A stretch of 64,000 nucleotides of DNA. Source: Antedon mediterranea. Lineage: Eukaryota > Echinodermata > Crinoidea > Comatulida > Antedonidae. Both the position numbers and the translations under genes were made by a program. Positions within the stretch are counted from its first letter, which is position 1. Every line of letters starts with the position of its first letter. The stretch is taken from the NCBI RefSeq assembly GCF_964355755.1, contig NC_092672.1:35274501-35338500 (forward strand), in the 5' to 3' direction. Under the pieces are notes generated by a model. That model made no database searches, was not told the DNA's origin, and was given only the letters and a program-made list of their open reading frames with translations. This document shows positions 31,901 to 63,249 of the stretch, piece by piece.

Positions 31901-34900
31901 TACTGGTTTACAAAACTACATAATTAGTTCTTAGCAGTTATAATTCTTTCATGTTTATAAATTTGTGGTCCTTTTTGAAATAATCTTGATTGGTAATCTA
32001 TGTAATCAGGCTGAATTCTCTGATATTTACATTGTCTGTATATTTGATAGCGTCATTAACATATTCATTGAGGGAGATAAAGAAAGAAAACATACTGATT
32101 TCCCTGGGGAGTGTTGATTGAATCTCAGTATTGATTGTATAAGGCATTAAATAAACACAACCACATTTAAATTATTTCATTAGTACAAAATGCTTATTAT
32201 ACCGTCCAATGTATGCATTCAGTCATATCATCATTTATTTGTTACCATGTATTATTAAACATATTTATTCCTTTGCATAGTTCGTTAAATATTTATGCAT
32301 TTAGTTATTCACTCAAGAACCTTTTAATACATTTTTTAATAGAAATATCTTTTCTAATGTTTAATTCATAGATTAATATCATTTACTATAGTATTGCATT
32401 CATAATATAACTGTCTGTACCATGGTTTTTTTGTTAAGGTCCATTTACACTAGGACGATAACGATCAACGATAAATAGACAAATATGCATTTTTCATACA
32501 TAAAACAAAAAAAATATAAAACTTTTCTTCCTAGAACTATAGAATAACAATCTATGCTTCCTTTGATGAAAATGATATTTTCACACGTCCAATCAAATGA
32601 CGTCATGATTAGTAAGAGCAAAAATATTCTTATATAAATTTGTTTTTATTTATCATGACGTCAATTGATGGGAATTTAAAAAATATTTTATCGAAGGAAG
32701 CATAGATGGTTATTCTGTAGTTCTAGAACAAAAACCTTTCTAATTTCTTTTGTTTTATGTAAAAAAAAATGCATGCTTTATATATTTATCACCGATCGTT
32801 ATTGTCCTAGTGTAAATGGGCCTTTATGCTTTATTTTTCAATTTTGTAGTGAACAATACATTTTAAAATCTAAAAAACGGCCTTTGTTATAAAAGATCCT
32901 TCAGTATGCAATAGCTAATCCAAGAATAGGTAAATGGTCACATTATCAATATGGCAGCTAATCCTATAACTTGCTATGAGATTAAACGGATTAGAACAGA
33001 TAATCTATAGCCGCTGTACAAAATCTGTACACAATTGAAATTATATGCAGGATTAGTATAATATATTACGAGCAGATTAAAGCGATCTTGTTGCTACGGT
33101 GAAGGGTTTCACGTTTTCTAGAACGTGAACTTCTGACCTTTTCAGATGTTTATCGATGTAATCGGTTTGTTAGGTAAAAAAAACCGATTCTAAATTAGAC
33201 AATGTTTTTCATGGCTCGTTTTACAAGCCATTAAAATAGAAATTTGTTTCTCGGCTTTGACTTGTTAATGTATCCGGTGTGTTTCAGTGAGTCACATAAA
33301 CTGTATTGTATTTAGAAAAGGTGAATTTTTAAAAGGTCTCATATAGTATGAATAGAATGCTGAAAAAGAAGACTATAAATAAAACTTTCTACTGTTTTAA
33401 GCAGCTTTGGTATTTATCAATGTTAAAACTAAAGTTTAAATCACAAGTGAACACAATAAATATAAACCATCTATGACATTTATTTTTAAACAAATTAAAA
33501 TAATATTAAGAATCTAACTAATTATATCCATGAACATCCATACCAAATGCTTAGTGTATAATGTTGAACTTTCTAGATAAACTATAGAAATATATATATA
33601 ACTTAAAGTAATTATACTTTCTTGGGTAATATTATACAATTATTTAATTGTTATGTTATTATCCCGATAATATTAAAAATCCATATTATGTAAATATATT
33701 ATATAAATAGATAGTGTTACATGTCAAATTGTACCAAAATAATATTTTATACTTGCATAAATATTGTATTGCTGTGAATTTTAATACTAATAGTCACGCC
33801 ATATGTTTAAAGTATTGCAATGCCAGTGCAATTTGCCAAATAGCTATACAAACTGTACTAGCTATATTTTTACCAGTAACAGTAGTTATATTATGCTGTA
33901 ATGTTTAATAGCTTGATATATTACTATTATTATATTATTATATTACTGGTTCTGTGGTATTGAAATGTACTAATATTTTATTATCTTTCTTTATGGTTAA
34001 AAGGCCAGGTGCGAGCAAAAAATTTCTAGTGATCATACATTCCAATAATTATCGTTCTGTAGTTCACCTATGTGTCATAATTTTTGGGATTTTATTTGTG
34101 TTACACAAGCTTGTTGAAAATAAGCACTTTCTTATCAGTGGGGGGATAGTTCAAATTACACAGTAAAATCTCTATTCTTTTGTACACAAATTTTGTAAAT
34201 AGAGAGGCATTTTAAACGGTGTGGTAAAAAATGTTATCGGATGACTAAATATAGGTAATATAACTTGAATATTACATTTCTGATATTTTTATTCAACTTC
34301 AGATTTTTATTTTCATGCTGTAGCAAAAATTATCCACCGTATATCCATCATCTTTTTTCACCGTCTAGGGAGTCACCAGACATGTTATTACATTAGGTTA
34401 ACTACCTAACTACTGAAAAAAGGTCTTTCTGGTTTTTATGGAAGAATTTTGCCAAATTTTGTATTTGACCATATTAAGAGAAATTCATGTTTTTTCGTCT
34501 TGATTTCTGTTACAAATATTTGATTTATGTACAATTAACCAAATATTATATTTAAACTTCATGCCTGTATCTGAGCTTTAAGTTAATTGTTTTATAGTGT
34601 AATATATAGTACAATGAACTTACATTTTAAGCTCTGTCCACACTATGAAACTTTATATGACAAAACAATATGATGTGGCCATTTATAGATATTATGATGT
34701 CATATTATCACTACCATATTTGGGTATACCACTACCATATTTGGGCATATTGTACTAGTTTTATAGTGTAACTAGAGCTTTACTTATAATACTTTATAAT
34801 ACAAAAACATAACAATTAATGTTATGAATTTACGGTATTATAATATAAAATGTGAGGTAATATAACTTTTGTTGTTTTTTCTTTATAATAGAAAACTGAA

Positions 34901-37900
34901 TTGGTGAATACTGCAGTTTTGAATAACGAAAAAGTTCGTGCTAAGCTGAAAGTGTTTGCTATCTCCCAAGACCATAGTGTAGTGGACGTCACAAACCAAT
35001 CTGCCTGTACATCAGCTGACAAGAACATTCTTAAGGTAAGTCTATTGGTCCAGAGTAGATCCAGCAGGGCAAGTCCAGTAGGGGTAGGTCCAGCAGGGGC
35101 AGGTCCAGCAGGAGTCCATATTATATTAATTAATAGTCTGTTAAAAATAGATATCATAAAGTAGCTCATAATTTTAGTTTAGCTGTCAAAAGAGGGAGCA
35201 TTTGTGCCTGTTTGTAGACAAGACATTGTAGTAGACCATATAGACTAAAGCTCTGTCTACACTATCAAACTTTATGCGACCAAAAAATGTGATGTGCCTA
35301 TATATGGACACGATGATGTCATATCACTACCATATTAAGCATATCACTACCATATTAAGCATATCACTACCATATTTGGGCACAGCATACTTTTTTTGTC
35401 AAACTAGTTTGATAGTGTAGACAGAGCTTAAAGGATTACCAAGCAATCAAGTGCATACTCAATTGCTAACAGTGATATAATAAAATGTTGAGGCATTTGC
35501 ACCAATTGGAAGTCTTCACTTATCACCACTATATTGTATAACACCAAATTACAACAGCTTTTACGGGAAGATTTCACAATCTTGTGGTATTTTTACAAAC
35601 CACATCTGCTCCTAAGCCACCCTTTTAGGCATCGCATACGAGCAGGTTTATGATATCGATGTAGGGGGTTTCTGGAGTGACATTTATGCCGCAGTAAACT
35701 TGCCTGGTAGATAAAAGTATTTTACGAGTACAGTAATCAAAATTGTTATGCTGTACACAACTGGCATAAGCAGCTGTTAATCATTACGTCGAGCATCAAA
35801 TCGGGATGGTGAAATCGCGGTCACGTTCCTCCTCAAACACCGTGCCGTCTTCTGCGCAAGAATTGTTTAGTTTCCGCCTTCATTTAATAATAGGTTTAGA
35901 ATTGTGAATTTATTTATATATTTTGAGGAAAATAAATTTCGGACAAAAAAATTCCTAAAAAATAAATGCTTTTTTCCCCCTTTATACGCATCCAACAGCA
36001 AGTAATAAACTATTTAATAATTTATCGTGCTTATAAATGAAGTCTCATTTGAGGCTTAGGGAGTGGAGTTGTGAGTTATTACCTTGGTACTAGGTCAGGA
36101 TTGATTGGATTGGAAGGCAAGCAAGCGCAAGCTAGAGCTCCACTACGCTTTACGGCTTAATATAATATAAAATAGTTTGTTTTAAGCCTCTGGAAAATAT
36201 TGTATTTTTGTGTATTTTTTCAGGTAGAGCAAAATTGCAGCTATATGTTCTTTGATGGCAGTGAAGATAGTAGCAGATCTGACATCAGTATTACTGTCAA
36301 CTACCAGGGCAAATCTGTAGATCTCAGTCTGTGGGTGTGGATACCTGAGCTCCCTCTGATCATTGAGCTGTCTGACCAGAAACTAAGCCTGATTAAGGAA
36401 TGGAAAGTTCCACACAGAGGTCTCAGAAGGTGATTATAACACTATACTACTATTATTTTGCTAAAAATGTATTGCGCAATATTTCCCAAGTGGGACCTAC
36501 CATAGGACAACTGCTTACTTTTTTTAAAACACAATCCAAGATATCTTGTAATTGCATCGAAAATGTTCCATACAAATTAACTCCTTATAACATTTTTTTA
36601 AACATTTATAAACCCATGCATCCTCTCACCCTCTCTTAACTTCCAATCTCAAGTCCCATCAGAAACCAAGTCTGATTGAGAGAATTTCCATCATACAAAG
36701 GCATCAGAATATTTATATTATTCTATTAGTCTATATCGTGCCTAGATTACTTGGATAAACCGACAACAGCCTACTCTCCTCATAAAAAAAACTAAAACTC
36801 TGGATTGATTGAAAACAAGTTTTTAATTTTGTAGCAATAAAGGGCAGTTTACTTGTATAAACCTCTGTCTACACTATCAAACTAGTTTGATAAAAAAAGT
36901 GGGATGTATCCGAATATGGTAGTGATATACCCAAATACGGTAGTGATATGACATCATCATCTCCATATATGGGCACATCACATTTTTTTGTCACATAAAG
37001 TTTGATGTGTAGACAGAGCTTAAGAAACAGAAATAAAGGTTAAAACTAAGGTTAAAATTTATGAGCTCTGCAAAGCTCAGAAGAAAGTGTACATATTTAA
37101 TTTGGTAGTATTTCAAATCAAAGTACATTCTTTTGAATTAATTTGCATCATTAAAGTACAATTAGTAATTATATAATCTATGTTTTGATGCTCACCGCAT
37201 CTGAAGAATCATTGGCAGCAGTTTATGACCGATCGTGCCGTACGAAATCAAGCGTTTTACCGTTACCATACAATTAGTTGGGATAAATATCGATCAAGTG
37301 CAATAAATCAGTATAATACATGTTTAGAAAGCGAAGAAGTCTTGACATTTCACCACGAGTCTTTCAATCGCACATTTCTATTGAAGAAGTCAATGTACAG
37401 TATAAAGAAAAAAATAAATAGATTTTAAAAATGTCACAACATTTGTAATATTAAGTTACTGTACTATATAAGTGAATAATCTTAAGCTATGTCTACACTT
37501 TCAAACTTTATGTGACAAAAAAATGTGCTGTACCCATATATGGACAGGATGATGTCATATTACTACCATATTTGGGCATGTCACTACAGTACCATATTTA
37601 AGCACATCACATTTTGTTTGTCAAACTGGTTTGATAGTGTAGACAGAGCTTAATAGTTGTATGGGTTATTTTACAAGACAATTATACCACAGAGGGAAAT
37701 AATGGCAGACACATTCAAGACATTGGCTGGAAAGTTGAAAATATAGAATCATATGAAAATTAAAGCTTTATAATATTATATTTTGTACAGAAATAGACGT
37801 TCTACTGACAGTAACAAATGTAAACTACGATATCAACAAGCAACTGTTGCAGTTTATACTCGTTTCTACACCAAGCACGCAAACTCAGGTAACTTTAAAA

Positions 37901-40900
37901 TCTACTTTATATGAACGGTGGCTCTAGAGTGAATAACGAAAAATTTGATGAAATGAATGATGAAATGTAGGCCTACAGACTGCTGTTGATTGCTTGAAAT
38001 CATTCCAGCATACTGGTACATATATGTATGTAAAGCTCTGTCTACACTATCAAACTAGTTTGATAGTGAAATTAACATGCCCAAATGTGGGAGTAATATG
38101 ACATCGTCATGTTCATATTTGGGCACATCACATTTTGTTGTCACATAAAGTTTGATAGTGTAAACAGAGCTTTACGTATATGCATTAAAGGTTGCCCTTG
38201 CTAAACACTTAATAATATTACAGTACCTCATCATATTAACATAAAGCCACTAGATATTTATACATGTAGTTGATATTATGTATTTTATTTATTTTTGCCA
38301 CTTCAGGCAGGAAGGTTCACATGTTCGGAAAAGATACAAAGGAAGAAGTAACAAGTTTGTTGGCTCCTACTCAGTTCACCACCAGTGACCCCAAGATTGC
38401 AACCATTGATAATCTGATTGTGTATGGACATTCAGATGGAGTGGCCTCTGTGCAGGTAAAATGCAAACCTACAAACACTCTTGATATAATGGCAAAAGTC
38501 TCCCGATAATGGCGGTACTCTTCCGATTTAAATGGCGGAACTCTCCCTATTTAAATGGCGGAACTCTCCCTATTTAAATGGCGGAAGTCTCCCGATTTAA
38601 TTGGCGGAACTCTTCCAATTTAAATGGCGGAAGTCTCCCGATAATGGCGGAAGTCTCCCAATAATGGCGGAACTCTCCCGATTTAAATGGCGGAACTCTA
38701 CCAATAATGGCTACACTCTCCCGATTTAAATGGCGGAACTCTCCCGATTTAAATGGCGGAACTCTCCCGAATATAGCGTGACTTTCCCAATAATGGCATA
38801 ACTTTCCAATAATGGCGTAACTTTCCCAATAATGGCATAACTTTCCCAATAATGGCGAAACTTATCCGATAATTGCGGAACTCTCCTGATATTTGGTTCA
38901 TTTTTCCACTCTCCTGCTTAAATACAATATTTTTTGACATTTTCCGCCATGTTCACTATTATAGATGCCATATCTTTCTATTTTTTAATAGCGCCCTAAT
39001 TAGTTTGAGTTTGGACATGCTTTCATAAATCCTCCCTAGGATTTCAGTTTCCAAGTTGAGAGGTCTGTAAATGGACAATTAGAACACCATTACGATCTGT
39101 TTCGCGGTAATAATAGATAGATCAATTGAAAGAACAGACTGTTGCCTTGTTTTCTATTATTGGCAGTACCATACAATTAGTTTGTTTATAAATAAAAATG
39201 AGCTTGAATTGTTGTAGGTAATTCAAAAGCTGGTGTTTTTTTTTGTGCGTGTGAGAACAGTAACCAAGATTTTCGCACACATTAACGTCTAATGAAAATC
39301 CTTCTGTGTTTATCCAAATTTACAGTCAGCTTAAGTACATTAAATCCATGCATTTATGAGATTAACATTACAATTTGTTCGTCGGCAGATACATAAGTAT
39401 GTTGAATCCATAATTGAATCCCAATCCCTTGGGAATAAGACAAAGTAACGCAAACTAGGTAACCTGGTGAATTTAGAGTATAATCAAAAACCACTCATGG
39501 GTGATAGGATTAAATTCAGATTACCATTTCTTTACTAGGATTTGGAGATTAATCCCAAGATAAAGCAAATCCCACAACACTTATTTTAGTCTATGTATTA
39601 TGTTATGCACTCAGTTATGCATGATATTCTGATTGCTATTTTAGATTGAGATCAATAGTCTCTTCTTGGTATTTGAGATTATCCCTATATTATAGATAAT
39701 CCCTATATTAGAGATAATCCCTATGTTATGCTATATTGGTATTAATATCTTGTATTCTATTCTATTTTAGGTGATGCCAGGTGAAGGTAACAAAGCTCTA
39801 GCTCACAAGGAATTTACAGTGGGTGGGGATAAAGTGTCTGTGACAGACCTTCACATCTCCATGGTGACTGGCCTCCGTATCCATAGTGTTAGGGATGTTA
39901 ATGTCAAGCTTTTGAAGGCTGTACGCGTGGAGGCTAATGACCAACTTATTGCGAAATATCAGGTTTGTATTTTAATGGAATGAATTTTACTTTTAACAAT
40001 GAGTACACAGTTTTTAATAATTAGTAAGTAATATCTATTAAATATTATGATTAAAATGGCAGCATATAAATCAATTCTATTTGTTTGGCTTTTTTAGGAA
40101 GGAATTTTGGATGTGACTTTGGGATTCAGCGATGGCGCTATATTGCCATTGCGTCATGTCTCAACTGAAGATTACTTCATCAAAGCATTGAGTCACGACT
40201 CCAACATCGTGATAGACAGGTCGGATGACATCCAAGCGGCAGTTGTAGCGATCGCAGAGGGCGCTACAACCATCGATGTAGAACTTAAATTGCCACGAAT
40301 TTGTCACAAGAAACACAAATCAACAAATAAAATTTTGTCAAGGATATATCCTGTCAACGTATCATTTGCAACTGAGAATATTCAACAGAAATTGAGAAAA
40401 ATTGGGAAGGAAGACGAAACATCGGGAAACAAAGCGGCTCCAGGTGCCGCTACCGGAGAAGCTTCCCAAAGTGGTAAAGTTGATTTTGGAATTGTCCACG
40501 CAAACTTTGATCCTAGCTTGTATGAAAACGACCTGGAAGAAAAGTCGTCGGATAAGGGGAGCAATAAAAATAAAAATGTGTATTCAATACCATTAGACGA
40601 GATAAACTTTGATCCTGTAAATGACCCAAATAAAAATTCTCCCAACAGAGACAGAGACAGCGATTTAACAAATGATATTTTGAATAACATTGAGAATAAT
40701 AAGAACAAGTCATCCGCTATGGAGATCGGCATGTACGTAATGTTGGCAGTGTTTGCCTTAGCTATCACAGTGTTTTTGCTTAATTGTATGGTGTACATGT
40801 ATAGAATTGGCCGCAGAAAGAAGGTGCCCCCAAGTGTGATCGGTAATTATGCAACTCCAAACGAGAGTTGGTCGTGGCTTGGTCGAGAGATGGAATCCGA

Positions 40901-41297
40901 TGCCATGAAAAGACAAGGTGATTGTGATTGTGAACAAGAGCAGACAGACATGGCATTGACGCAGGTTTACACCGAGAGTGAAGTCAGCGTTGAACACCAC
41001 AGCACGTCATGCTCAGAATCACCAGCAGATTCTGGAACCCATGATCTTAGCGAGACAAACTTGGACGTGGAAGAAGAGATTAATGTCACCGATGAACCAC
41101 CATCGGTTGATGAAGGTGGCACAGAGGACTCTCCAGAAGAAGCTGAAAAGAATATTGATCCTGTTGAAGAGAGTCCAATGCTTAATAAAGATATTCAGGT
41201 GACTACTGTGAACCCAAATGCAGAGAATGAGGAGGCTGTGGAATACGATCAGTTACTGGCGCATTTAAACTCACTGCAAGCCGAGATTCAAGCTTAG
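7931..41297 (+). CDS. TMEM132-family single-pass membrane protein (complete, 10 exons)
   Basis: Exons 7931-7988, 19513-20362, 23643-23792, 31251-31431, 34892-35035, 36224-36429, 37791-37888, 38307-38455, 39771-39962 and 40098-41297 join in phase to exactly 1076 codons (1075 residues), a normal length for TMEM132 proteins. Residues 1-20 form a signal peptide. Residues 21-883 are the ectodomain; the family is described as having cohesin-like and Ig/BIG-like domains. The membrane span is at about 886-910, followed by RIGRRKK stop-transfer residues and an acidic tail with the family NESWSWLG motif (about 931-938). TMEM132 proteins act in neural adhesion and actin coupling. Features include a furin-type RNRR at about 530-533 between exons 6 and 7, and no phenylalanine in the tail. 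I cannot assign a vertebrate A-E subtype; position next to AACS recalls TMEM132B, but an invertebrate gene is probably pre-duplication. Confidence 0.95.
9384..9622. repeat. 25-bp tandem repeat, about 9 copies
   Basis: The unit is AATGTAGCCAGTTAACC followed by ATTCAGTT. Eight copies are near-identical and the last ones are lengthened to about 28 bases by AGAGATGTTG. The unit contains the palindrome GTTAAC. Confidence 0.95.
10827..10989. mobile_element. Family B MITE, copy B1
   Basis: Starts AAGCTCTGTCTACATTATCAA and ends TAGTGTAGAGAGAGCTT. The interior carries ATGTGCC..ATATATGGACATGATGATGTCATAT and CTACCATATTTGGG-type blocks shared by all family B copies. Confidence 0.85.
11551..12361 (+). 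mobile_element. 811-bp TIR transposon with subterminal ATACCGTAT repeats
   Basis: The left end is GGCCCTGTTTCTGCTGCCAAC and the right end GTTGCAGCAGAAACAGGCCC, terminal inverted repeats of about 20 bases. Both ends are packed with TACCGTATTTTT and its complement, repeated about ten times as a subterminal array. An inverted internal pair of the GGCAGCAGAAAC motif (about 11630 and 11740) suggests partial internal duplication or nesting. The interior carries a broken Myb/SANT-like reading frame. Superfamily is uncertain; Myb/SANT proteins accompany PIF/Harbinger transposases. The target-site duplication is not clear. Confidence 0.75.
11867..12074 (+). pseudogene. Broken Myb/SANT-like (MADF-type) DNA-binding frame
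   Basis: The first piece (11867-11920) reads MWSEDVTVLLNKFV before a stop, which matches the first helix of Myb/SANT-like domains (W-S-x-x-x-x-x-L-L). The second piece (11922-12074) is one frame over and reads IYKDISKKIKQEYGIDLSPK then QVNSKLKSLRKQYN, matching helices 2 and 3 (I..k......QV..KlksL.kqY). The pieces are in different frames with a stop between, so this is a decayed transposon-borne DNA-binding protein, unless a tiny intron is spliced out. Confidence 0.6.
14460..14530. repeat. 14-bp tandem repeat, about 5 copies
   Basis: The unit is ATTAAAAGTATTGG or ATTAAAAGTATTAG. Simple AT-rich minisatellite. Confidence 0.85.
15175..15410. repeat. Pyrimidine-rich degenerate tandem repeat
   Basis: C/T-rich on + (G/A on -). 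CTTCCTCCCCATATCACCCA and CCCGTACCACTCATTCT recur two to three times with uneven spacing. The proline/serine-rich frame here is a by-product of the repeat. Confidence 0.8.
15420..15720 (-). mobile_element. Probable non-LTR retrotransposon 3' tail
   Basis: On the minus strand it ends TTTGATGAGATGCAAAAAAA followed by TCAAATCAAATAAA. This pattern (GATGAGATGCAA(A)TAAA plus a short tandem tail) is common at 3' ends of CR1/L2-like elements. No coding part is preserved here. Confidence 0.4.
17111..17210. repeat. 25-bp tandem repeat, 4 copies
   Basis: The unit is ATGCGCATAAGTGAATC followed by TTGCAAAC, with an exact 25-base period. Unrelated in sequence to the 25-bp array at 9.4 kb. A minus-strand repetitive frame here is an artefact. 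Confidence 0.95.
18881..18900. repeat. Perfect 20-bp palindrome
   Basis: ATATACTGTATACAGTATAT is its own reverse complement. The ACTGTA/TACAGT words recur widely in the window, so this may be a local extreme of a common word. Confidence 0.7.
19513..20362 (+). CDS. TMEM132 exon 2, N-terminal ectodomain
   Basis: A large 850-base exon (residues 20-303) after the acceptor ATGTCTTTCAG. The family also has a large second exon. It contains segments such as NSSFFVQTRKHNSEEILLRE, PIPMEWW and VYVHVGEVPL that fit the TMEM132 N-terminal domain. Several N-x-S/T sites suggest glycosylation. The donor GTAAGT begins at 20363. Confidence 0.95.
20363..23642. other. TMEM132 intron 2
   Basis: 3.3 kb. Contains MITE B2 (21371-21512). 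I see no other recognisable structure. Confidence 0.55.
21371..21512. mobile_element. Family B MITE, copy B2 (left end lost)
   Basis: Contains GATGTGCCCATATATGGACAT and two CTACCATATTTGGGCATATC blocks. It ends GATCGTGTGGACAGAGCT. The left terminal repeat is eroded to AACTATCAAACC. Confidence 0.8.
23643..23792 (+). CDS. TMEM132 exon 3
   Basis: Residues 303-353. It begins by completing a lysine codon and reads IKPRKGLAITAIHYYDAVI, with the family RKGL element. Donor GTAAGT at 23793; 150 bases. Confidence 0.93.
24806..24950. mobile_element. Family B MITE, copy B3
   Basis: Starts TTAAGCTCTGTCTACAC and ends CTAGTTTGATAGTGTAGACA. The interior has the usual ATGATGTCATATCACTACC block. Confidence 0.85.
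25790..25893 (+). mobile_element. Probable retroelement 3' tail
   Basis: ACCATATGGACAATTGTCTG is followed by AAATAAAAATTGAATTGAAATTGAA. An A-rich tail with short TTGAA repeats is typical of LINE/SINE 3' ends and resembles the tail at 50262-50302. No upstream body recognised. Confidence 0.4.
26777..26927. mobile_element. Family B MITE, copy B4
   Basis: Starts TAGCTCTGTCTACACTATCA and ends AAAGTTTGATAGTGTAGACA. Orientation is opposite to B1-B3 judging by the interior order. The 82-codon frame across it is not a gene. Confidence 0.85.
27221..27359. repeat. 69-bp tandem duplication (2 copies)
   Basis: ATGATAAAACATTAATGTAC begins at 27221 and again at 27290. The two 69-base units differ at only a few sites (C/T, GGA/TGA), so the duplication is recent. 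Confidence 0.9.
27936..28010. repeat. Block shared with intron 5 (copy 1)
   Basis: AGTGACATTTATGC, then TAGTAAA, GGTAGATA, ATTTTACGAGTA and GTAATCAA occur in the same order at 35664-35740. Either a dispersed repeat or a duplicated intronic element. Confidence 0.6.
30007..30350. repeat. Imperfect tandem duplication, about 200-bp period
   Basis: ATAAAATCATCAAACTTGTC and AAATTTGTATAGAACACAGT each occur twice, about 200 bases apart, with small indels. Confidence 0.85.
30587..30790. repeat. Imperfect tandem duplication, about 105-bp period
   Basis: ATTCTGGTTCTGAAAAAACA and AATATAACTTGAAACAT each occur twice, about 105 bases apart. The second copy carries a short insert, GGAGGTTTT. Confidence 0.85.
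31251..31431 (+). CDS. TMEM132 exon 4
   Basis: Residues 353-413, after the acceptor CCTTTCTTTCAG. It encodes EVPIFLVEFKVMN and ISWKVDIMQDG, typical beta-rich ectodomain. Donor GTGAGA at 31432, phase 0. Confidence 0.93.
31547..31651. mobile_element. Family B MITE, copy B5 (partial)
   Basis: The left terminal repeat is missing. The interior ATGATGATGTCATATCACTA and the right end GGGATAGTGTAGTCAGAG are kept. Confidence 0.75.
32436..32824. mobile_element. 389-bp foldback element (MITE)
   Basis: The left arm begins AAGGTCCATTTACACTAGGACG and the right arm ends TCCTAGTGTAAATGGGCCTT. The arms stay complementary for well over 100 bases, for example TAGAACTATAGAATAAC opposite GTTATTCTGTAGTTCTA and CCAATCAAATGACGTCATGA opposite TCATGACGTCAATTGATGG. 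The ends flank TTA/TA. No coding frame. Confidence 0.88.
34628..34780. mobile_element. Family B MITE, copy B6
   Basis: Starts TAAGCTCTGTCCACACTAT and ends TTTTATAGTGTAACTAGAGCTT. Interior CTACCATATTTGGG occurs twice. Confidence 0.82.
34892..35035 (+). CDS. TMEM132 exon 5
   Basis: 48 codons in phase 0 (residues 414-461). It includes KVRAKLKVFAISQDHSVVDV and a cysteine (SACTSADKNILK) typical of this region of the family. Donor GTAAGT at 35036. Confidence 0.93.
35247..35430. mobile_element. Family B MITE, copy B7 (full length)
   Basis: Starts AAAGCTCTGTCTACACTATC and ends GATAGTGTAGACAGAGCTT, intact inverted repeats of at least 20 bases. The interior CACTACCATATTAAGCATAT is duplicated. Confidence 0.9.
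35664..35740. repeat. Block shared with intron 3 (copy 2)
   Basis: AGTGACATTTATGCCGCAGTAA, GGTAGATA and ATTTTACGAGTA occur in the same order and spacing as at 27936-28010. Confidence 0.6.
36224..36429 (+). CDS. TMEM132 exon 6
   Basis: Residues 462-530. VEQNCSYMFFDGSED is followed by LSLWVWIPELPLIIELSD, the most recognisable stretch of the family (VWxPxLPLxIxLSD), then EWKVPHRGLRR. Donor GTGATT at 36430. Confidence 0.95.
36861..37021. mobile_element. Family B MITE, copy B8
   Basis: Starts ACCTCTGTCTACACTATCAA and ends GATGTGTAGACAGAGCTT. Interior GGTAGTGATATACCCAAATA is in reverse orientation to B1. Confidence 0.87.
37483..37651. mobile_element. Family B MITE, copy B9
   Basis: Starts TAAGCTATGTCTACACTTTC and ends GATAGTGTAGACAGAGCTTA, flanked by TTAA on both sides. 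Confidence 0.88.
37791..37888 (+). CDS. TMEM132 exon 7
   Basis: Residues 530-563. The junction with exon 6 reads GLRRNRRSTDSNKC, followed by LRYQQATVAVYTRFYT, matching the family 'YQ.A.v.v.T.F' region. Donor GTAACT at 37889, phase 1. Too short for an ORF scan. Confidence 0.92.
38032..38172. mobile_element. Family B MITE, copy B10
   Basis: Starts AAAGCTCTGTCTACACTATC and ends GATAGTGTAAACAGAGCTTT. Occupies most of the 418-base intron 7. Confidence 0.88.
38307..38455 (+). CDS. TMEM132 exon 8
   Basis: Residues 563-612: KVHMFGKDTKEEVTSLLAPT, then DPKIATIDNLIVYGHSDGVA, an Ig/BIG-like segment. Donor GTAAAA at 38456. The tandem ATGGCGG array begins about 50 bases downstream. Confidence 0.93.
38456..39770. 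other. TMEM132 intron 8
   Basis: Begins with the 23-bp ATGGCGG array (38500-38895) and ends with a short ATCCCTATATTAGAGATA repeat (39680-39735). The middle is unremarkable. Confidence 0.55.
38500..38895. repeat. Degenerate 23-bp ATGGCGG tandem repeat, about 18 copies
   Basis: The unit is close to AATGGCGGAACTCTCCCGATTT; units of 19-24 bases are mixed (some lack the TTTAA part). AATGGCGGAA resembles the YY1 core (AAnATGGCGG). Starts about 45 bases after the exon 8 donor. Confidence 0.93.
39771..39962 (+). CDS. TMEM132 exon 9
   Basis: 64 codons in phase 0 (residues 613-676), from VMPGEGNKALAHKEF to NDQLIAKYQ. It includes DKVSVTDLHISMVTGLRI, which matches the family motif 'V.DL.v.lV.GL'. Donor GTTTGT at 39963. 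Confidence 0.94.
40098..41297 (+). CDS. TMEM132 exon 10, membrane span and cytoplasmic tail
   Basis: Residues 677-1075. EGILDVTLGFSDGAILPLRH begins the last ectodomain block. A long Asn/Lys/Asp-rich stalk (about 800-883) follows, then the span MYVMLAVFALAITVFLLNCM, basic RIGRRKK and the NESWSWLG motif. The tail is Glu/Asp/Ser-rich and ends in a short amphipathic QLLAHLNSLQAEIQA. Stop TAG 41295-41297. Confidence 0.96.
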   Translation, partial: EGILDVTLGFSDGAILPLRHVSTEDYFIKALSHDSNIVIDRSDDIQAAVVAIAEGATTIDVELKLPRICHKKHKSTNKILSRIYPVNVSFATENIQQKLRKIGKEDETSGNKAAPGAATGEASQSGKVDFGIVHANFDPSLYENDLEEKSSDKGSNKNKNVYSIPLDEINFDPVNDPNKNSPNRDRDSDLTNDILNNIENNKNKSSAMEIGMYVMLAVFALAITVFLLNCMVYMYRIGRRKKVPPSVIGNYATPNESWSWLGREMESDAMKRQGDCDCEQEQTDMALTQVYTESEVSVEHHSTSCSESPADSGTHDLSETNLDVEEEINVTDEPPSVDEGGTEDSPEEAEKNIDPVEESPMLNKDIQVTTVNPNAENEEAVEYDQLLAHLNSLQAEIQA

Positions 41298-51110: not shown

Positions 51111-51155
51111 ATGGTGCAGATAAAATTACAAAGGAAAATTGAGGTTATCAGACAG
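51111..51155 (+). CDS. Candidate first exon of the repeat protein
   Basis: ATG in a good context (AAAATGG), 15 codons, donor CAG|GTACGT. Lies 240 bases after the CCAAT/NRF-1 element, and the phase matches the exon at 62800. Confidence 0.5.
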
Positions 51156-54100
51156 GTACGTTCATTTGAAATTATTTTAATAATAGATACAACAAATATT
51201 TTTGTTCATTTGTTTTAATTAATTAGTGGAGTTCGTGATCGACCGATCAATTCCAGAAGCAGTGTTATTAATCATTCATAAGAACCGATTGAATTATTAA
51301 TCATCTATTTACATAAATATTTTATTAAATAATAATTAATAAAGCATTAGCAATTAGTATCATAACGTAATTTCTGTAGATATACAACTTAAGTACGTAC
51401 TAGTTTGTCTTAATTAATAATGTCAGTTATGGATAGGGGTGAATGTAGTGAGAGAGGGTAGGCCTAAATGCGTGGTCTGTATTTTGTTAATAATTGACCA
51501 TGAGATACCGTAGCAATTGTGATTAAAATTCCATATCCGATCATCTGACTAGATTACCGCTTGCTGTTAAATCATATAGTACACAATATGTCTTACAGAA
51601 AATGTTGTAGTCTTTTACAAATCGTTTAATGATCAGTCATTTTAAAGCTAAACAAGCCAGTCAAAAGTAAACAACATACGGTATAAATATTACTTTGAAA
51701 TCTGTTGAAGCGCGAAGTATGACGCCTGCTGTGTGATATGATAGCCAGGGTCGTTATTTATTTATGGCTTAATGATAATAATATTATCATGCACGAAAAA
51801 TACATATACTTTCCGTCATGATGATTTACTGCAGAGACCCGCTGTATTGATACAGTCATAGGTACCCTTATAAATTACATCAGACCCGCTCTCATAATAT
51901 TGGTTTAATGAATATTCAGTTTTGGTGAAATTAAGAGTTGTAGTAGCTGTCTAGTATGCGAAAATGACTTTTGGATTTTGGAATGAGTGGGGGACGGGAG
52001 AGGTGATTCAGGAGGTCCGTCAATAATATTAAATAATTTAATTGAATTAACATTAAATAAATAAAGCAATATCAAACAACAAACATGGCATGAGAGCATT
52101 GTGTTAGTGGTTATTTCATTGAGGAAATCAAAATGTAAATATTATTCAACCACGAACAGGATTTTTTTTTTTATGATGGTAGACGTCCGTCGTATATTAA
52201 ATAATGCATGCATTATCGTAATGGGTAGGCCTCAACGTTTAGGCAGCATGTAGTATTACCAGAATTGCAGATTTTTCCTCTCAAATAATACTATAATACA
52301 GTTTCGACTTTTTTATGTAATGATTAATTTACCTTTATTAATATCATAACAAACAACAACACAAAACAAACACGGAGTAAAAATATGTTTAAAGATGAAA
52401 TTAGGGACCTCCGAGAAACCTTAAGGGGATTGTTATAGGAGGCCCACTAAAACTAGTTACATTAATTAAAATACGTACCGTACCGTAAAAAATAATAAAT
52501 AAATAAATAGACGAATAGACCATGACAGGATTAACATGGGATGCGCATTGTTAGGAAATACCATGATTTTTGTCCGTAACCAGCTCAAGATAGGCCTACG
52601 TATGACACGCATGACGACGTGTGCCGAAATGTTTATCTCTTTATCAATTAGGCCTTTAAGACAATGCATTTGTATATGTTTGTGTCTATATTAATAATAA
52701 CGGCAAGTGTTATTCCACCACGGAGACTGAGAGCATGATTTCCATCGCGGTCTCCATTAGGGACAGCCCCGACCGAGTATATTCGGTTTCTTTTGTTGTG
52801 TGGCACGTTAAAAGAAAAACTAGCATGCAACCGTGTTTTGAGTTTCATTGATTATTGCCACCAACAGTGACGTTGACCAGTATCACATGTTGTACATCGA
52901 CATATTAATTCTTTTGTTGATTTATTTTTATTCATATTTTACGGAATAATTTTGATTAGTTTTAACGCCAGATGGTTTAGTTGTGATCTTGTTTCGTACT
53001 TTATGTAACATTCAAAAGCAACGAGGAAAATCCGCCATAATCAAAACGTATAATAGTAGACCTAATATATGAGTACATAATTACGTCTAAAGAGCTCCGC
53101 TCTACACACACATTATACATATATAATTTAATTTAAAGAATTCAAACTTAAAACCACACATACTTTAATTAAAGTGTGCGTTGAAAAGTTGATAATGTAT
53201 GTATAGACCTATGGTCTGATATGTAAATAGACATAACTTGAAAGCAATGAGGAAATTCCGCCATAGGCCTAATCAAAACGTATAGGCCTAATGTAGACCT
53301 ATGAGTCCATTACGTCTAAGTAGCTCCACTCTACCCACAATTATACGTATAATTTATATTTAAGGAAATCAAACTTAAAACCACACGTACTTTAATTCGG
53401 CCAACGTGTGCGTTGAAAAGTTGATAATATTATAATGGCGGCCTACTATGGTCTACTCATGTAATAATACATCTAACTTGAACAATTATTAAATATAATG
53501 ATTGGGCCATAATTATAAAGCGTATTGGAATACCGTCGTCCACTAGATTAATTCTATTTCTGTTTTCATATTTTAAATTGAAATTGCAGGCTTGCCAATT
53601 TTTTCACGAACAAAACCTTTAAAAATCTCTGTTTTGAATGATAAGATTGTATCGATTTGTGGCGGAAGCAATCATTCTGTATCTTGGCATTATCCGCCGA
53701 CGACAGAATGCTGTAGGCCTAAGTAGTAGTGCTAAATAGATCGCTTATAATCATGAAACCATGCAGGAATTGAATTTACTTGTTTCATAATCACTGTACA
53801 ATTTTAATACTAATGACCTTTCGATCAAAATACTCGGGTCGTATAGTAGTTATTGGAATGATATTTGCTGTTCTTTCGTTTTAAGCCATTTCGCGTTACG
53901 CCACTGCGTACGTGCATCTTGTTCATAATCAATGAGAAATAAGTTAATTGATGAAATAATTGTTTTCGACACATTTTGCATTTTCTCTCACTTTTTAAAG
54001 ACATTATGTAACTGAAATTACCGGTAAAATCTGTTAATTTCCCAAATTAAGGGCCGTTTTACAAATCTTAATTAGAGAGATTTGGGTCGACGTGACCAAT

Positions 54101-57100
54101 CCTTCCTTCCAGGAGATCATTAGGTCTACAAAATTATAGGCCTAGATATATTATAATAGTGGTGGTCAGTTAGACTAAGTTTTAAAATGTATCTTCTGTT
54201 GGAGACAGCATTAATAATATTCATGAGAACAATGGAATATTGGAATATAAAATCACAATATCATGTATTTAACTGCACCCATGAGAGACGGACGATCCAG
54301 CTGTTTGACGGTCTTTAAAAAAAGAATAAATTCAATATTGTCTTGTACGGTAATCCTGTATGAGTGAATTACACTTAACCAGAGATTGTACTATTAGAAT
54401 AATGTTCACATTATTTAATCCCGAATAATAATGTAGCAACAACATTGTAGTATCTGGTTCTATTAAAGGAAGAAATTAGATCGTCTTTACAGTAAAACAC
54501 TAGTTGTTTATATAGTTTTCAACTCCATGATTTTCTAATAAGGGGAAAGACTTTGGACTGAACTCAACCTTATCCTATATTTAAAATTGTAATTTTCAAA
54601 ATTTAGAGCCAGCTCAACGAAACATGGTATAAAACATCAATTGCGCAATACCAAACGAACAATGAGAACATTAAAATGTATGGTGTTTAAACGAATATTT
54701 TGAGCTGTGTGTCTTGATGTTTTGAAAGTAATATTGTTTGCCATTCCATAACCTTGACATTTAATTGTACTCTGTACTCATTATTTTTTTTTATCGGCCT
54801 TTTATTTTAAACAACAACAACGACTGTAACTAACCTTAAATAGGCCGCCAACTATTGACTTATATTGATTGTCTTATCGTCCTTCGGATGAAACATTTAA
54901 TAGGCACGCCGGTTATTATAGAACTTGATTATTAAATGAACCAATCAGTGGGCCTAAACTTACAATTAATCCTAAATATCCACCACCAGCCACCGACTCC
55001 CCTAACAATTACCCTCTCCGACACCCCGCAATGACCCTCCCCGACACCCTACCCTCTCCGACACCCCCACAATAACCCTCTCCGACACCCCAAAATTATC
55101 CTCCCCCGACACCCTACCCTCTCCGACACCCCCACAATAACCCCTCCGACACCCTACAATTACCCTCCCCGACACCCCCACAATTAGCCTACCCTCCCCG
55201 ACACACTACCCTCTCCGACACCCCCACAGTTACCCTCCCCGACACCCCACAATTACCTTCCCCGACACCCTACCCTCTCCGACACCCCCGCAATTAACCT
55301 CTCCGACACCCCAACAATAACTCTCTCCGACACCCCACAACCCTCTCCGACAACCCCGCAATTACCCTCCCTACCCTCTCCGACACCCACACAATTACCC
55401 TCCCCGACACCCTACCCTCTACGACACCATCCAACCCACTCACACTCAGATATATTATTTTTTAGACCTCTCTCATTATGGACATTTTCTTCTTTATTTT
55501 GCCATATGATGCTCTCCGATTATTATTACAACACTCATAAATGCTATGACCTTTACAAATAAACCGTGACGTACTTTGTCTGAATATGTTTATAGTTTTT
55601 TATGTTAATGTTATTTAATGTATATCATCGTTATCTTGCATTTTCAAGCAATTGTTTTTGTGTCGTGTGCAGTCGTAACCTCCGTGTGCACTCGCATTAT
55701 TGAGAGGCGTAAACGATTTACGCGCAACGTACGTAGGCCTATTTAATTTTTCGGTGCAACGTTTGTTTTGAGAGCGGCGCTTATTTTAAAACTAACATAA
55801 TAATGTCCTGTCTGTACAGTTGCGAGCATCAAGCCGACATCGAGCCAAATATAGGGCCTATGGACAATGCACTGAACATTTTCATTCAGAATATAATAAG
55901 TAATCACATGTATTACATGGCAAGTAATGTAATTTAACTTATGGAAATAAATAAACGTGAAATGTGGATTAGATTGTCATTCGCTAATGGGCTGAGGCCT
56001 AATTAAGACGCGCCAATAAACCGTGAGCAGATGTCGTATTCATTTTGAATGCCCTGTGTGAGAGGCCTAAATATCACGGTAATTATCGTCATTTGCTTTA
56101 TTTTCATTTTTGCTGCTCATTATAATGACATTTCATTTTCGTCATTATCACGTGTGCCACAATAATCTGTGACGTAGCCACTGGTAATATCCGTTATGAG
56201 TATTACTATTTATGATAACAACTATTTATGGCACCTGGATGGATATTATTGTTATCATTACGGGTATATTTGTCATCGCCATCGTAACTCTAAAATCCTT
56301 ATGATCATTGTCATTAAATGATGTAACCGCTTTCACCAACCACAATCATTATCATATTATCATTATCAAAACATTGTACAGTATAGCCGCATCACTGTGT
56401 ACAACCACAACCACAATATTCCAACTGAGATTTTGTTAAACCTCAACAACCGTAACTTTATCCCCAACCCCCACAACCACCTCCTTCAATCATGGTCACC
56501 CACAAACATTTTATTCCCAGCTTTGCAGATATCTCCTTTAAATAATATTTGGCCTAACTGGAATTCTATTGTGTACACGTTGAAGGCTTATCACTAAGAT
56601 CATCAGTCAGATATGGAATTCGTTACCATGGTAATATAACAAATTATGATATCATAATTGTAATTGTGTCAATATAGGCCTATACAAGATCGACCCTGTA
56701 CCATGAGTCCACTATCGTATTATGAGAATGTGATTGTTGATTTAGGAAGGAAATGATTTGACTTTAGATTGCATTGTCCAGAAATGTTGGTATCAGTCGA
56801 GTAGGCCATTTTTTCTTAATTTGTCTTAAGTTACGATTTTTGAAGGAAAAAAAAAGATTTAATGGCACACAATTCGGGTGATTGTGAAGTTCCGCTTTTC
56901 CTTGGCGCTGAGTATAATTATGCTTATTAGGGCGAAATGGTCATGGCTGTCTGTAACAAAGTATTTATTTTTAGAATTTATTTTTAAAGGTCAAGTTCAC
57001 GTAGTACTATACAGGTTCTTTAAATAACAATAGTACAATAAACTCAAATAAGTTGTGGTAAACCCCAACAGAATGAGGGCGCTATATAATGTACAGCCTA

Positions 57101-60100
57101 TAGCAATCATCATGATTACGCACACAGTACAGAGAGTTATTACAAGTTCTGAGTTTCCTTTTAAATGTTGGTGCGCCCTCTATTTTTTTTTCTTTTAGGT
57201 CATAACGCCTGTATAATCGTATTTAATTCATGAATATTTTCATGAAACTGTTCATAATTCGTTCACGGACGAGGGCGTTAATTTTTTCACGTAATGTGTG
57301 AACTTTTATAAAATCTGGTAAAAGTAAAGCGCTCTTCTGTTATATATAAAAGTATGCCTAAAGTATTCCAATGATTTTTGTAGGATCTGTGGCTATTAAA
57401 TACAGATTTTTCATATTCGTTAATATTTTAATACGTAGTTACCAGGGACGAGTGAAATTACACTAATTTTAATTTCACTCTTCCCTGGTAGTAACGTACT
57501 AAAAGAAAATCACCTGTATGATAATTAACTACGAAATTTTAAAGATTTATAACCGAAAATGTTATAAATTCCCTCATCAATTACCGTACAGCAAGACAAA
57601 ATGCTTTTACATAAAAAGTACGAGTGTATATCAAATTTAAACCATAATCTCAATTGTTAGTGGCATTTAAATTGATCGATATGTTAGTGGTTACACAGTG
57701 GTCATACCGTTGTAGGATTGGGTTGTCGCCGGCAGAGGGTGGAGTTACAAGCAGACGACAGCTTGTGTCTTTTGTACGCTTGATGTATTTGACAGCAGTT
57801 TGTGTTTAATCTCTGCTCAAGTTGCCAGTAAAGGCAGTTAGAGAAGTCAATTTGAGAGGAATTTAAATAAAGAAGAGAATAGACGATGATGAATGGAATG
57901 ACGAACGGGGTAAGAACATTAATGAAGTTTAAATTGTTCAACGCCATTTGATATCGCAGTATCCAACAACTGTTCTCTGTGTTTAGTTAGGAAAATGTCA
58001 AATTGATGTTACACGGTTTTAGTCCGACCATGGTCCGACAGTCGGCAGAATATCCAGACATTTAAATTAGTTAATACAAAATGATACCGCTTTTATATAT
58101 ATATATTTTATTTCAATGTACAGTTGCTGTAAGTAGTAGGCCTATATTAGTAGAATTATTATATTGCCCGGGCATTAGTAACCTAAACCAGGAAGGGACA
58201 ATGTCACGCCAAGTTAGGTTCTATTTCCAAATTAGGCGCCAAATTAGGTACTCATTACAATTTTCTACCATTTTTTGAAATGCAGTTTTACGGTATATAA
58301 TGCGAATGTATTGAAGCTATAGTGTTAAACTCCCGAAACATCCTATGTATCGTTTCGATCCCGGTTTCGACCTCCTGATTTACATCGTATTCGAAAAATT
58401 ATGATTAAAAGTTATAATACTATACTTGAAATTTAGCAATTTCAACTAATTACACCACCTGTAGGAGGCCATATACTGTATACATATTTCGGAGTATTTG
58501 AAAAATGAGATGCCCAGTCGGCCTGCTGTGTTCTGTGGTGGATTGTGGATATTGTATGTGGGAACCTGGTGTATGACTACTATCGTTTATTTATCACAAC
58601 AGTTGTTTTAACCATACTACTAATGCTACTAATTTGTCAAATTGTGCATACAGAACTCAGTAGTGAAGGTCCCCCCATCGATCGTGGATACGATTATGAC
58701 GTAAGTCGATCCTGGCAGCAGCTTAAATCAGCTTGGTCTATAATTGTTTCTATATCGTATTTATTCAATCATTTTATAGAACGTGACTTGCCCGTGTAGT
58801 TAAAAAAAACGAACGCAAAAACTGACAAAATTTGAACGGGCGTTTACATTTTGATAATGGTATGTGTTTGTACGCGCGCGTAAACTTGTGTCGTTTGTGG
58901 TATACGTCACTGGGTAGAGGTACTACAATAATTGCAACGTGGACATTGTAATTTATAATGTATATACAGTAGGCCTACCGTATAATAATTGTGTATAGAT
59001 CTGAAAAGCAACGATACTAGGGTTTAGATAAATGAAAATCTAAACTTCACTTAAATTTTGTTTATTACATTGGCCTTCGACAAGTAGGTTTACCCATGGT
59101 TTATCAAGTACTTTTGGCACTTGAGCTGGCCACTCGTAAAACCATCAAGCCACTTTTCGTGCTTAATTCACACTCTTTAAACACATTTTTTACTGCGAGA
59201 ACTTTGGTTATACGAGTGTAATGCCAGGGGTCAAGTTATTCCATGTTTAAATGCAATAAATTGTCTTTAAAATAGTTTGAGATTTTGAGAATTTTCCAAA
59301 TACCGCGCGTTCAAATATTGATACTGTATAATGGTACGCGCGCGTAAATACGGTTCCTTTTTAGTGCCATTGACTTTTTATATCAGTAATCCATAGGCTT
59401 ACAATGCTTATAGATCATAGAGTTAGACTTAAGATGATAACAATAGGGTGTTGTACAACGGCTGCTGTGTGACTCAACGAAGTTTACTTTCTTTTTATGA
59501 TTGAAAACAATTGTTTAGTTTAGGCTTTTCACAGGTAAATATTCTATACTCGCGTTAACGTAGTATCGGTTGCTTGTCTAAATGATTTGTCTGGTTTTTC
59601 ATAGGCCTGCAGGCCGTACACAAATGATCGAATAATTTGAGTTACTTACGCGCGATCTTTTGCATCGAAATTTGGCGGTAACGCGTTTATTTGTTCTGAG
59701 ACCATTCATACGTGTAACTAAAGGAAACACGTAGATTGTAGTTTTCTCAAATCTTTAACATTTACAATTTAGCGAAATATTTGATGCTCCACATGCCGCA
59801 TACCAAAGATTAAACAGTACTTAAAGTTGGCATGAGACAATATTTATTCTTCCATGGTTATGATCTTGTTTTAAGAGATAACGTTACACTAGCCTATATA
59901 GTGGTAGGATATATTATAATAACACGTGTATTATAGGCCTAAAACTGGTATAACCGTGACCAATTACTGCATGCAGGCCTATGGATGAATAAAATCGGCC
60001 TAGTGTTCAATCAATTTCTTTCACATTTTGTCTCCTGTCTCTAGAAGGCTATTAAGATTTCGAACTACTATATATATCACGTACCGATAAACATTGACAC

Positions 60101-63100
60101 ATTTAGATCCCAATTTACATATTTCTTTCATTAATAATTTAAATATCATCCAAATTGAACCACACATTAATCAACTCACGCGGAACCAAGATTGCTACAG
60201 AATTATATTACGCTTCCGTAATTTGTAAGTGTTTCCATAGAGCCATAATACAAATTGAAAAATTCCCCATAAAACAGCTTACAATTGTGTATTATCATAC
60301 TTAAACTATAATTCATAAAGAAGGCGCTGATGCGTGATAATTATGTACAACTGCAGTATATTAATGAACAAGGAAGCGCCTATATTTTATAGTCTGATCC
60401 GTGAAGCTGTACAACAGTTATGACACACTAAGCTAAATCAGAAAAAATTAACTATCTCTCATATTTTATCCTGTTGTTTAATAACATTTAACGTCCAGGT
60501 AAGGGGGACATTTTTTACAATCATTTGCTAGGCTGAGGTAGGCCAATAACTTTACTTTATTGCGTGTTGTGTATGCATGTCTTCAACTTGTAACTTGTTT
60601 ATCGTAAACTCATGTAGGCTCAGGTATACTACAAGAACATCCGTATCGGTTCATAATAAACAAAATTTTTAGAGGAAATGAAATTCATTTTTAATTATTA
60701 TTTTCTACTTATTGTCTAGAGCAGCATTGAGTACTGCATCCCTTGTCTGTTCTGCTTTAGGTCCTATAGGTTACCTGTCATTTTGCTTTTGGTGGTTTAA
60801 GTATTTTCTTGAAAAAATATTCCCTTCTCACCAAAGAGTTATTTTCTCACAAACTCCGCGCAATTCTAGCGTCGCCAGGACAGCTTAATATTTTTTTTCC
60901 TAGATTATTTTGTAAATGCTTAATCTAGGGGAGGTAAAGGAATGCAGCTTTATCAATTTTTAAGTAGGCCTACAGTACACCAGATTCGGGTTATCAGCAC
61001 CAATCCATTACATTGACGTTTTGTAGTCTTTATAAAGTATTTGGCTTTATCTCTAGTGACTTTCATCATCACCAGCTTATTCTTTTCGTGTCGTTACGTT
61101 TAACTTGCATTAAACATTCATATTTTAGGCCTGTATGTTTGTCTGCAAATGTTTTAAACTAAATCCGACAACCATCTCCTCCGCCCAGAGTCCATAGAAA
61201 TTTCAATAGGCCTATTTAAAGAATATACCGTCTATAGATATTAACCTGTCAATTTAAACTTGGCGTCCATTGGTCTCTGCGCGTCACTATAGTTTAAACA
61301 TTCCCCTTATTACATCAATGGTCACACGGGACATCCCCTAAACGTCACTCTTCTTCGGACGCCACTACTGTATGAATTCCGTTCACAAAAAGAAATATGA
61401 CTATTATTAGCTTAGTAAGTAAACGCGGCAATGTTTATTCTGCGCCCAAGTCTCGCATTCGCCTATAGGGACCAAACAACCCATACAGCCCACAATTATT
61501 ATGTCAACAATGTTTACTTTTTATTCAAGTCAGACTCAATCCGACCAGAACTCCCTTCTCAATTATTTGTTCTTTAAGAATTCTAAAAATAATATCGATC
61601 AAAATTCGGCCTGCATACCGATTACATTGTGATGTACAAATAAATGCAATTAGTTTCGTTTTTAATGACATTCCTCTATAATATCATGTTCTGGTCTAAT
61701 AGAAAATATGTTTTTTTGTGATTTAGGCCTATATTTGTTTTAATACTTGCTAAATATACACACTCTGTACTTTGGAAAAACGAACGAATACATTTGGTAC
61801 AGGCCTCCTTCACGTATTGGTATTGCAACACGCGTTGCCTAAATCAGGGATATGTAAAATATAAATTAATTAATTTTCATCTATTTTTATAAACAATTTA
61901 TTTTCATCTCTGTTACAAAGTTTACAAACAATTAAAATTTTTAATGTGTTTACTAAAAAATTTGAATTTTTGATACAGTATATTATTTACTGTACGGAGA
62001 TTATGGAGATACTGTGTATAAACTGCGGGAAAGTTCACTAGATTTGCTATGTGAAATTCCAATGTTTCTTGTGTTGGCATCATTCGTGGTTCTGAGTCAA
62101 CACGGCATCATGGATTCACATTGTTAAATAGGCATATAATTAGTGTGAACCACGTATATAAATATCTATAGTTTACTGACCAATTTGTACAGAAAATTAG
62201 GGTGTGGACCACCAAAGCGATGAATCTTTTTAGCTGAATCATAAAATCAATATTATATATTAAGACCGTGTGATCATAGACAAACATCAGAGAAGTAGGG
62301 AAGGATAAAAATGATCAATTTGACAAACATCAGAAGAAAATTATTCATAAAGGATAAAATGATCAATAAATATATTATGTAGATACACGACATTTAGCAA
62401 AACGAAGGGAAGGGTCATGACATGGGTTATAAACCATTATAGAGGATTTAGGAATTAATTAGGCGGTCTAAACGGTCTGAATTTTAAGGCTCAGGGATGG
62501 GGTAATTGTAAACAAGGCCATATAAAAAATAAAGAAAGCGTGTAACTAAAGTATCTAAAGAGATCTCACGAATTTGCTATTAAATACGTGAATTTTGTAC
62601 ATATCGACATTTACGGGGAATTTGAATCTGGCACTGACAATATTTCAGACGGCAGATCTTTAATAAAAATTGAAACCGACTAATTTTAAATTAGAATGAA
62701 TATTAATTAGTGATGTTTTATTTAACACTCGGATATTTATAGAATTTATTATGTTAATTGATGTTATAATTAATTAAAATGTATTCGTTATTTTCACAGG
62801 AGGTCTGCGAGTACGATCTTGAACCGGAAGATTTCGAAGAGGAACTAGAAAACGGGATGATACCAACACAATACAGCGAGACCACAACCATCATACCACG
62901 GCCGGCGTACGAAGTTTATTCACACGGCTGCCGGTTAAATATCATCGACGAACAACGCTTTAAAGAGGAGGTTCAGGTTCGGCCAGGAATTCGTCAAAAA
63001 TATTTCAACACTACGTCTTATATTTATCCGGAAAGTTCTCGAAGGCGGTACAAAAGTTCGATACAATTTATACCAGGACTTAAAACGAAGCATTATACTT

Positions 63101-63249
63101 CGACCGTTTACACTTTCCCAAAATGGGCTCAAAGGACTTACTCAAGCGCAGTGAAGCACCGTGATGCCGAGACGTTAAAATGGTATAAATGTTCCGTACA
63201 AATGGAAGCGAAAGACTTTGTTTCAATCAAGCTCATACAAGTTTCATAA
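51111..63249 (+). CDS. Unrecognised protein with periodic-tyrosine (about 15-residue) repeats
   Basis: Proposed model: exon 1 (51111-51155, MVQIKLQRKIEVIRQ, donor GTACGT) joined to a terminal exon (62800-63249, acceptor TTTTCACAG), both phase 0, giving 164 residues. The terminal exon is well supported as coding: long open frame, strong acceptor, balanced composition. Exon 1 is less certain; an alternative donor exon is at 58623-58700. After an acidic stretch (residues 19-33) come aromatic residues at 40, 55, 69, 83, 99, 114, 129 and 144 (all Tyr except Phe69). They are often preceded two to three residues earlier by Arg/Lys and followed by Ser/Thr-Ser/Thr-Val/Ile and, in early units, Pro. No signal peptide or membrane span is seen with exon 1. 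I know no family with this pattern and assign no function. AATAAA lies at 63565-63570. Confidence 0.55.
53010..53470. repeat. Imperfect tandem duplication, about 230-bp period
   Basis: GCGTTGAAAAGTTGATAAT, TTCAAACTTAAAACCACAC or TCAAACTTAAAACCACACG, and TTACGTCTAA each occur twice in the same order. Copy 2 carries extra AGGCCTA insertions relative to copy 1. Confidence 0.88.
54985..55450. repeat. C-rich CTCTCCGACACCCC minisatellite
   Basis: About 25 irregular copies of ACCCTCTCCGACACCCC with ACAATT spacers, about 465 bases, strongly C-rich on + (G-rich on -). It mixes units of roughly 17, 18 and 26 bases. Confidence 0.93.
57702..57947 (-). other. Small signal-peptide-like, cysteine-containing frame (unproven)
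   Basis: 81 codons from ATG at 57947: MALNNLNF, then the hydrophobic VLTPFVIPFIIVYSLLYL, then five Cys in the following 40 residues (NC, NCC, AC, LC). The 3' end contains a possible donor ACG|GTATGA. Could be a secreted-peptide exon nested in the intron, but may be chance. Confidence 0.25.
58623..58700 (+). other. Alternative upstream exon for the repeat protein (candidate)
   Basis: From ATG 58623, 26 codons (MLLICQIVHTELSSEG to GYDYD) end at a perfect donor GTAAGT in phase 0. Splicing to 62800 would give ...GYDYD-EVCEYDLEPED, continuing the acidic/tyrosine character. Confidence 0.3.
62800..63249 (+). CDS. Terminal exon of the repeat protein
   Basis: 149 codons and a stop. Begins EVCEYDLEPEDFEEELENG and carries the whole periodic-tyrosine region. 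The acceptor at 62798-62799 follows a TTATTTTCAC tract. ATG at 62779 is intronic in this model; if used instead, the protein would be MYSLFSQ plus this exon. Confidence 0.8.
   Translation, partial: EVCEYDLEPEDFEEELENGMIPTQYSETTTIIPRPAYEVYSHGCRLNIIDEQRFKEEVQVRPGIRQKYFNTTSYIYPESSRRRYKSSIQFIPGLKTKHYTSTVYTFPKWAQRTYSSAVKHRDAETLKWYKCSVQMEAKDFVSIKLIQVS

Follow-up and report, generated by a model that had tools for sequence, protein, structure and literature searches.

The closest described relatives of the protein reported here are the refilins, refilin A and refilin B (RFLNA/RFLNB, formerly FAM101A/B, also Cfm), small proteins whose filamin-binding regions BD1-BD4 were reportedly defined by Gay in PNAS in 2011. 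Mammals have two refilins, and papers on the mammalian proteins describe binding to the actin cross-linker filamin and actin bundling; RefilinA binds FLNA repeats 19-22, this binding survives deletion of BD1 or BD3 and is lost on deletion of BD2 or BD4, and the rat refilins are described with an N-terminal PEST/DSG(X)2-4S degradation signal (PMC5087682). Filamin partners contribute a beta-strand that lies beside strand C and occupies the C-D groove (PMC10164935), and the filamin ligands of known structure described in these sources each attach by adding a single strand (PMC10164935, PMC4554727). A search of titles and opening lines of abstracts in the open-licence refilin/FAM101 literature turned up no title on an invertebrate refilin, which is not evidence of absence.

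The window, meaning the whole 64,000-nucleotide stretch analysed here, corresponds to C3:35274501-35338500 of the Antedon mediterranea assembly (354 Mb, 18 contigs). Joining window positions 51111-51155 and 62800-63249 (phase 0, GT donor, CAG acceptor) gives a 164-residue protein that matched Pfam PF15068 (FAM101) with an E-value of 2.4e-14 and 54.1-54.3 bits, twice the curated cut-off of 27 bits. Residues 28-152 aligned to profile positions 84-208, 125 to 125 with no net gap, and a 58-residue piece searched alone covered 59 positions with one net gap; profile positions 1-83 had no match in the 164-residue model. Searching the 354 Mb genome with FAM101 returned three matches, with the 62800-63249 exon the only one above the cut-off, so that Antedon has one above-cut-off refilin where mammals have two (PMC5087682). 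The other two matches were rejected as second copies, one at C3:772514 (16.9 bits, in an Arg/Ser/Thr-rich frame that by eye is unlike refilin) and one at C10:8160271 (13.8 bits). The initial annotation had found no named repeat family with this signature and had held that its proposal would fall if a known domain clearly matched; PF15068 is such a match. The protein is almost certainly a refilin. The family was already described, and what appears to be new is a diverged member of it, not a new kind of repeat.

For comparison we used an approximate human RFLNB sequence, which we take to represent the human protein. Its score of 302.9 bits on the FAM101 model puts it near enough to the real one to be useful as a control. 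BLASTP of this sequence against the window exon gave an E-value of 1e-12 at approximately 25% identity, with three gap positions that fall in the N-terminal part; the last 86 core residues aligned without gaps, 22 of them identical. What the Antedon protein has in common with refilin A and B includes a C-terminal core of approximately 125 residues, aligned to the FAM101 profile with no net gap.

The long exon lies within a 159-codon open frame, stop to stop, and has a splice acceptor sequence at its edge. Both features argue against the exon being a decayed or untranslated refilin relic, as does the spacing of its repeated units, which is preserved despite the low identity to the human sequence; the missing N-terminal profile match and a gene model made from sequence alone would fit a relic, which we consider highly improbable. 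The 5' end is less firm. Under a simple donor rule, positions 41300-62799 contain six candidate phase-0 first exons of at least eight codons, and the one at 51111-51155 is the sole candidate beginning MV...LQ, a start that presumably resembles the N-terminus of human RFLNB. Adding this exon raises the FAM101 score by nothing, and a competing first exon at 57886-57909 has a donor, GTAAGA, that looks stronger than its GTACGT. Its open frame and splice signal make 51111-51155 a plausible but unproven, putative 5' exon. Residues 1-48 of the resulting model are acidic (computed pI 4.1) and the model, with its putative 5' exon, contains no DSG motif, in contrast to the PEST/DSG N-terminus of vertebrate refilins. 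Two DSG(X)2-4S matches occur in the plus-strand frames of 41300-62799, neither with an upstream Met in its open frame. Inside the proposed 11.6 kb intron, CTCCCCGACACCC-like units form a C-rich array at 55000-55430. The features of the locus are collected in Table 1.

Table 1. Features of the Antedon refilin locus, in window coordinates
Feature	Position	Strand	Basis and remarks
3' end of acetoacetyl-CoA synthetase (AACS)-like gene	1..2573	+	TIGR01217 matches, exon by exon
TMEM132 gene, two long exons identified	19494..41297	+	PF23481, PF15706, PF23487 above cut-off
TANGO2 gene, between TMEM132 and refilin	43251-46062	-	matches at 44148-45984; 43251 end by eye
Putative first coding exon	51111..51155	+	15 codons in phase 0 with a GTACGT donor; based on its open frame and a splice signal
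Proposed intron, GT...CAG	51156..62799	+	sequence signals; 11.6 kb
Last coding exon, refilin core	62800..63249	+	149 codons and stop; Pfam FAM101 54.2 bits
Strand-like unit Y40 (YSETTTII)	62872..62895	+	rank 1/157 against filamin ligands; out of 15-residue phase
Unit F69, type A	62959..62982	+	30-residue repeat; rank 7/157
Unit F84, type B	63004..63027	+	30-residue repeat; rank just 13/157
Unit Y99, type A (YKSSIQFI)	63049..63072	+	repeat; rank 2/157
Unit Y114, type B (YTSTVYTF)	63094..63117	+	repeat; rank 3/157
Unit Y129, type A	63139..63162	+	repeat; rank 6/157
Unit Y144, type B	63184..63207	+	repeat; rank 8/157
Possible polyadenylation signal AATAAA	63565..63570	+	consensus only

The genes around the exon also bear on its identity. 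The TMEM132 domains were found in frames 19494-20366 and 40098-41297, and PF23481, one of these domains, has a single match in the genome. Thirteen of the 15 TIGR01217 (AACS) matches fall in C3:35268562-35277073; taken exon by exon none exceeds the whole-protein cut-off, TIGR01217 also picks up related synthetases in 12 of the 14 control genomes, and a Pfam search of the frame at 338-715 in the AACS-like region named nothing. The AACS-like exons, TMEM132 and the refilin lie on one strand within 69 kb. A human chromosome 12 copy-number interval is reported to contain FAM101A, NCOR2, SCARB1, UBC, DHX37, BRI3BP, AACS, LOC100129380 and TMEM132B (PMC4074351); a refilin gene has AACS or AACS-like sequence and a TMEM132 gene in its neighbourhood both there and at the Antedon locus. 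This shared linkage supports orthology with FAM101A or with a single ancestral gene, and AACS-TMEM132-FAM101 could possibly be an ancient microsynteny block. The genome has a second TANGO2-bearing locus at C8:25099068-25101761. Just upstream of the TANGO2 gene in the window, at 46406-47076 on the minus strand, are pieces that by eye resemble the first and last TANGO2 exons; the piece tested scored 13 bits against the TANGO2 cut-off of 22.6, and the region is perhaps a partial, decayed TANGO2 duplicate.

The core of the protein is built on a repeat. Aromatic residues stand at positions 40, 55, 69, 83, 99, 114, 129 and 144 of the 164-residue model (Y, Y, F, Y, Y, Y, Y, Y), all eight where the initial annotation had placed them. 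When the 149-residue exon product was compared with itself by ungapped BLOSUM62 scoring and set against 3000 shuffles, it scored 87 at a shift of 30 residues and 41 at a shift of 15; the top score across shifts 5-79 was equalled by no shuffle, nor was the score at shift 15. The earlier view of an old, protein-level period in a real coding exon is right. The core alone scored 41, 87 and 23 at shifts of 15, 30 and 45 and just 14 at 60, with values of 4 to 20 at the adjacent shifts of 14, 16, 29, 31, 44, 46, 59 and 61. Residues 67-151 are a protein-level repeat. Aromatic spacing by itself was less decisive, with p=0.017 at lag 15 and p=0.0096 at lag 30; over all lags from 2 to 30 the aromatic period was not significant, as 33% of 5000 shuffles reached the best lag. 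DNA identity among the six units from 69 to 144 is 11-24 of 45 bases, in agreement with the high divergence noted earlier. The motif basic-x-aromatic-x-[ST]-[STA]-[VI], claimed earlier for most units, fits just three of the eight (99, 114 and 129).

The simplest and best register is exactly 15 residues, running F69, F84, Y99, Y114, Y129, Y144. It takes F84 in place of Y83: against Y114, F84 scores 30 and Y83 scores 1, whereas against 99 and 129 Y83 (8, 5) outscores F84 (3, -7), which places position 84 in one of two alternating unit types. The excess of self-similarity at shift 30 likewise indicates two alternating unit or strand types: type A comprises FKEEVQVRP (F69), YKSSIQFIP (Y99) and YSSAVKHRD (Y129), and type B comprises FNTTSYIYP (F84), YTSTVYTFP (Y114) and YKCSVQMEA (Y144). 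Position 40 resembles 114 (17) and 84 (13), that is type B, yet it is out of the 15-residue phase. Position 55 is no copy of the other units (-11 to 3 against seven units), and a register starting at 54 scored -16 to -33 against six.

The aromatic period of 15 is common to the window protein and the human RFLNB sequence used here, which has F, C, Y, F, Y, F at the six period positions. Five of the six are aromatic and 125 residues align to 125 profile positions, so the spacing that the initial annotation described is kept in the family. Self-similarity in this human sequence is weak (23 at shift 30, reached by 15 of 3000 shuffles) and lacks significance at shift 15, where 474 of 3000 shuffles did as well, so the period is much clearer in the window's protein. 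Because four of the six period positions of the human sequence are Phe or Cys, a phosphorylatable tyrosine is not what is kept, and nothing in the analysis supports the phosphotyrosine array that had been suggested. The broader idea, that the exon has no relation to refilins and belongs to a new repeat family in which phosphotyrosine or other ligand sites are arrayed, could draw on the regular tyrosines and on the lack of a solved relative by sequence (phmmer of the 156-residue frame against the PDB gave no matches at E up to 10). Set against the strength of the FAM101 match and the shared gene neighbourhood it is extremely improbable, and as a new family it is rejected on the FAM101 match.

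We scored each of the 157 eight-residue segments of the protein by its mean BLOSUM62 likeness, in a hand-chosen register, to four filamin-ligand strands, those of migfilin and integrin beta2 (PMC4554727, PMC5882645) and the beta1 and beta3 tails taken from PDB alignments. Units 40, 99 and 114 ranked first, second and third, units 129, 69 and 144 sixth, seventh and eighth, and units 84 and 55 thirteenth and thirty-first. Five segments scored at least 8, a number found in none of 5000 shuffles, and the sum of the top five was likewise reached by none of 5000; 153 of 5000 did as well as the best single segment, which means that the likeness draws its strength from how many units share it. The five include two off-register segments, at 39 and 111, and with migfilin alone the best segment lies away from any unit, the signal coming mainly from the integrin tails. 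Control TMEM132 frames of 290 and 399 residues had zero and two segments at or above 8. What the units have in common with integrin beta tails and migfilin is a strand pattern, Y/F-K-S-[AS]-[VIT]-x-x-[VI], often then proline, and no homology is claimed. By eye the strand is followed by PR in unit 40, PE in 84 and PK in 114, and by proline then G in 69 and 99; units 129 and 144 are without proline. Integrin beta tails and migfilin contribute one strand each in the described complexes, whereas the window protein has six or seven such strand-like units in a row.

Taken together, the exon is likely to encode the C-terminal part of a FAM101 (refilin) ortholog, a core with tandem strands predicted to dock on filamin, and the short beta-strands proposed earlier for the units are probably right. 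Each 15-residue unit would be one short beta-strand added to strand C, in the C-D groove of a filamin Ig-like repeat, much as integrin beta tails and migfilin dock. With several units in tandem, a single small protein would be able to hold on to several filamin repeats at once and to convert filamin from an actin-branching into an actin-bundling protein. Given the refilin identity, we lean toward the view that several units dock on filamin as strands. By analogy with the mammalian refilins, the Antedon protein would be expected to bind filamin and bundle actin.

Another reading is that the refilin core makes a fold of its own, either a small beta-sheet or a stack of 30-residue hairpins, with just one or two strands touching filamin. 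The self-similarity peak at 30 residues would then mark two-strand units, and the finding that only the BD2 and BD4 deletions abolish RefilinA binding to FLNA 19-22 (PMC5087682) would be in keeping with this reading. The filamin ligands of known structure, however, bind by adding one strand each (PMC10164935, PMC4554727), and several units, beyond one or two, resemble them; a single-sequence AlphaFold model was unusable (pLDDT 44.6, pTM 0.34), and such a low-confidence model of the lone chain says little for or against. A self-folding core is, on balance, unlikely.

The presumed filamin partner is plausibly present in the genome, as two loci have CH and filamin-repeat matches. At C9:25741498 a CH match precedes 25 of the 102 filamin-repeat matches, which lie on its own strand from 25757867 to 25785737 (rows counted by hand), and on C5 a CH match and seven repeat matches mark a second filamin-like locus. 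Each of the two CH matches reads through one stop, and we infer that the CH and filamin-repeat matches form single genes at each locus. Two CH domains were also seen at C1:39195632-39196297 within a 3586-codon open frame, which may be a single, very long exon that encodes part of a large cytoskeletal protein.

The docking of tandem strands on filamin can be extended to the family. Refilins in general may consist of six or seven tandem strands that dock on filamin, exactly 15 residues apart and alternating between two types, a proposal that we advance tentatively, as possible rather than probable. One refilin could then staple together several Ig repeats, or the two arms of a filamin dimer, and a division of labour between alternate strands would account for the loss of RefilinA binding on deletion of BD2 or BD4 and not of BD1 or BD3. 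The 15/30-residue register is a direct, testable prediction of the sites at which refilins would grip filamin. Antedon has a diverged refilin, with one above-cut-off refilin match and one TMEM132 match in the genome and a neighbourhood in common with human chromosome 12, and if the two-type array is true and the host is an invertebrate, as these single matches suggest, the array would predate the vertebrates.
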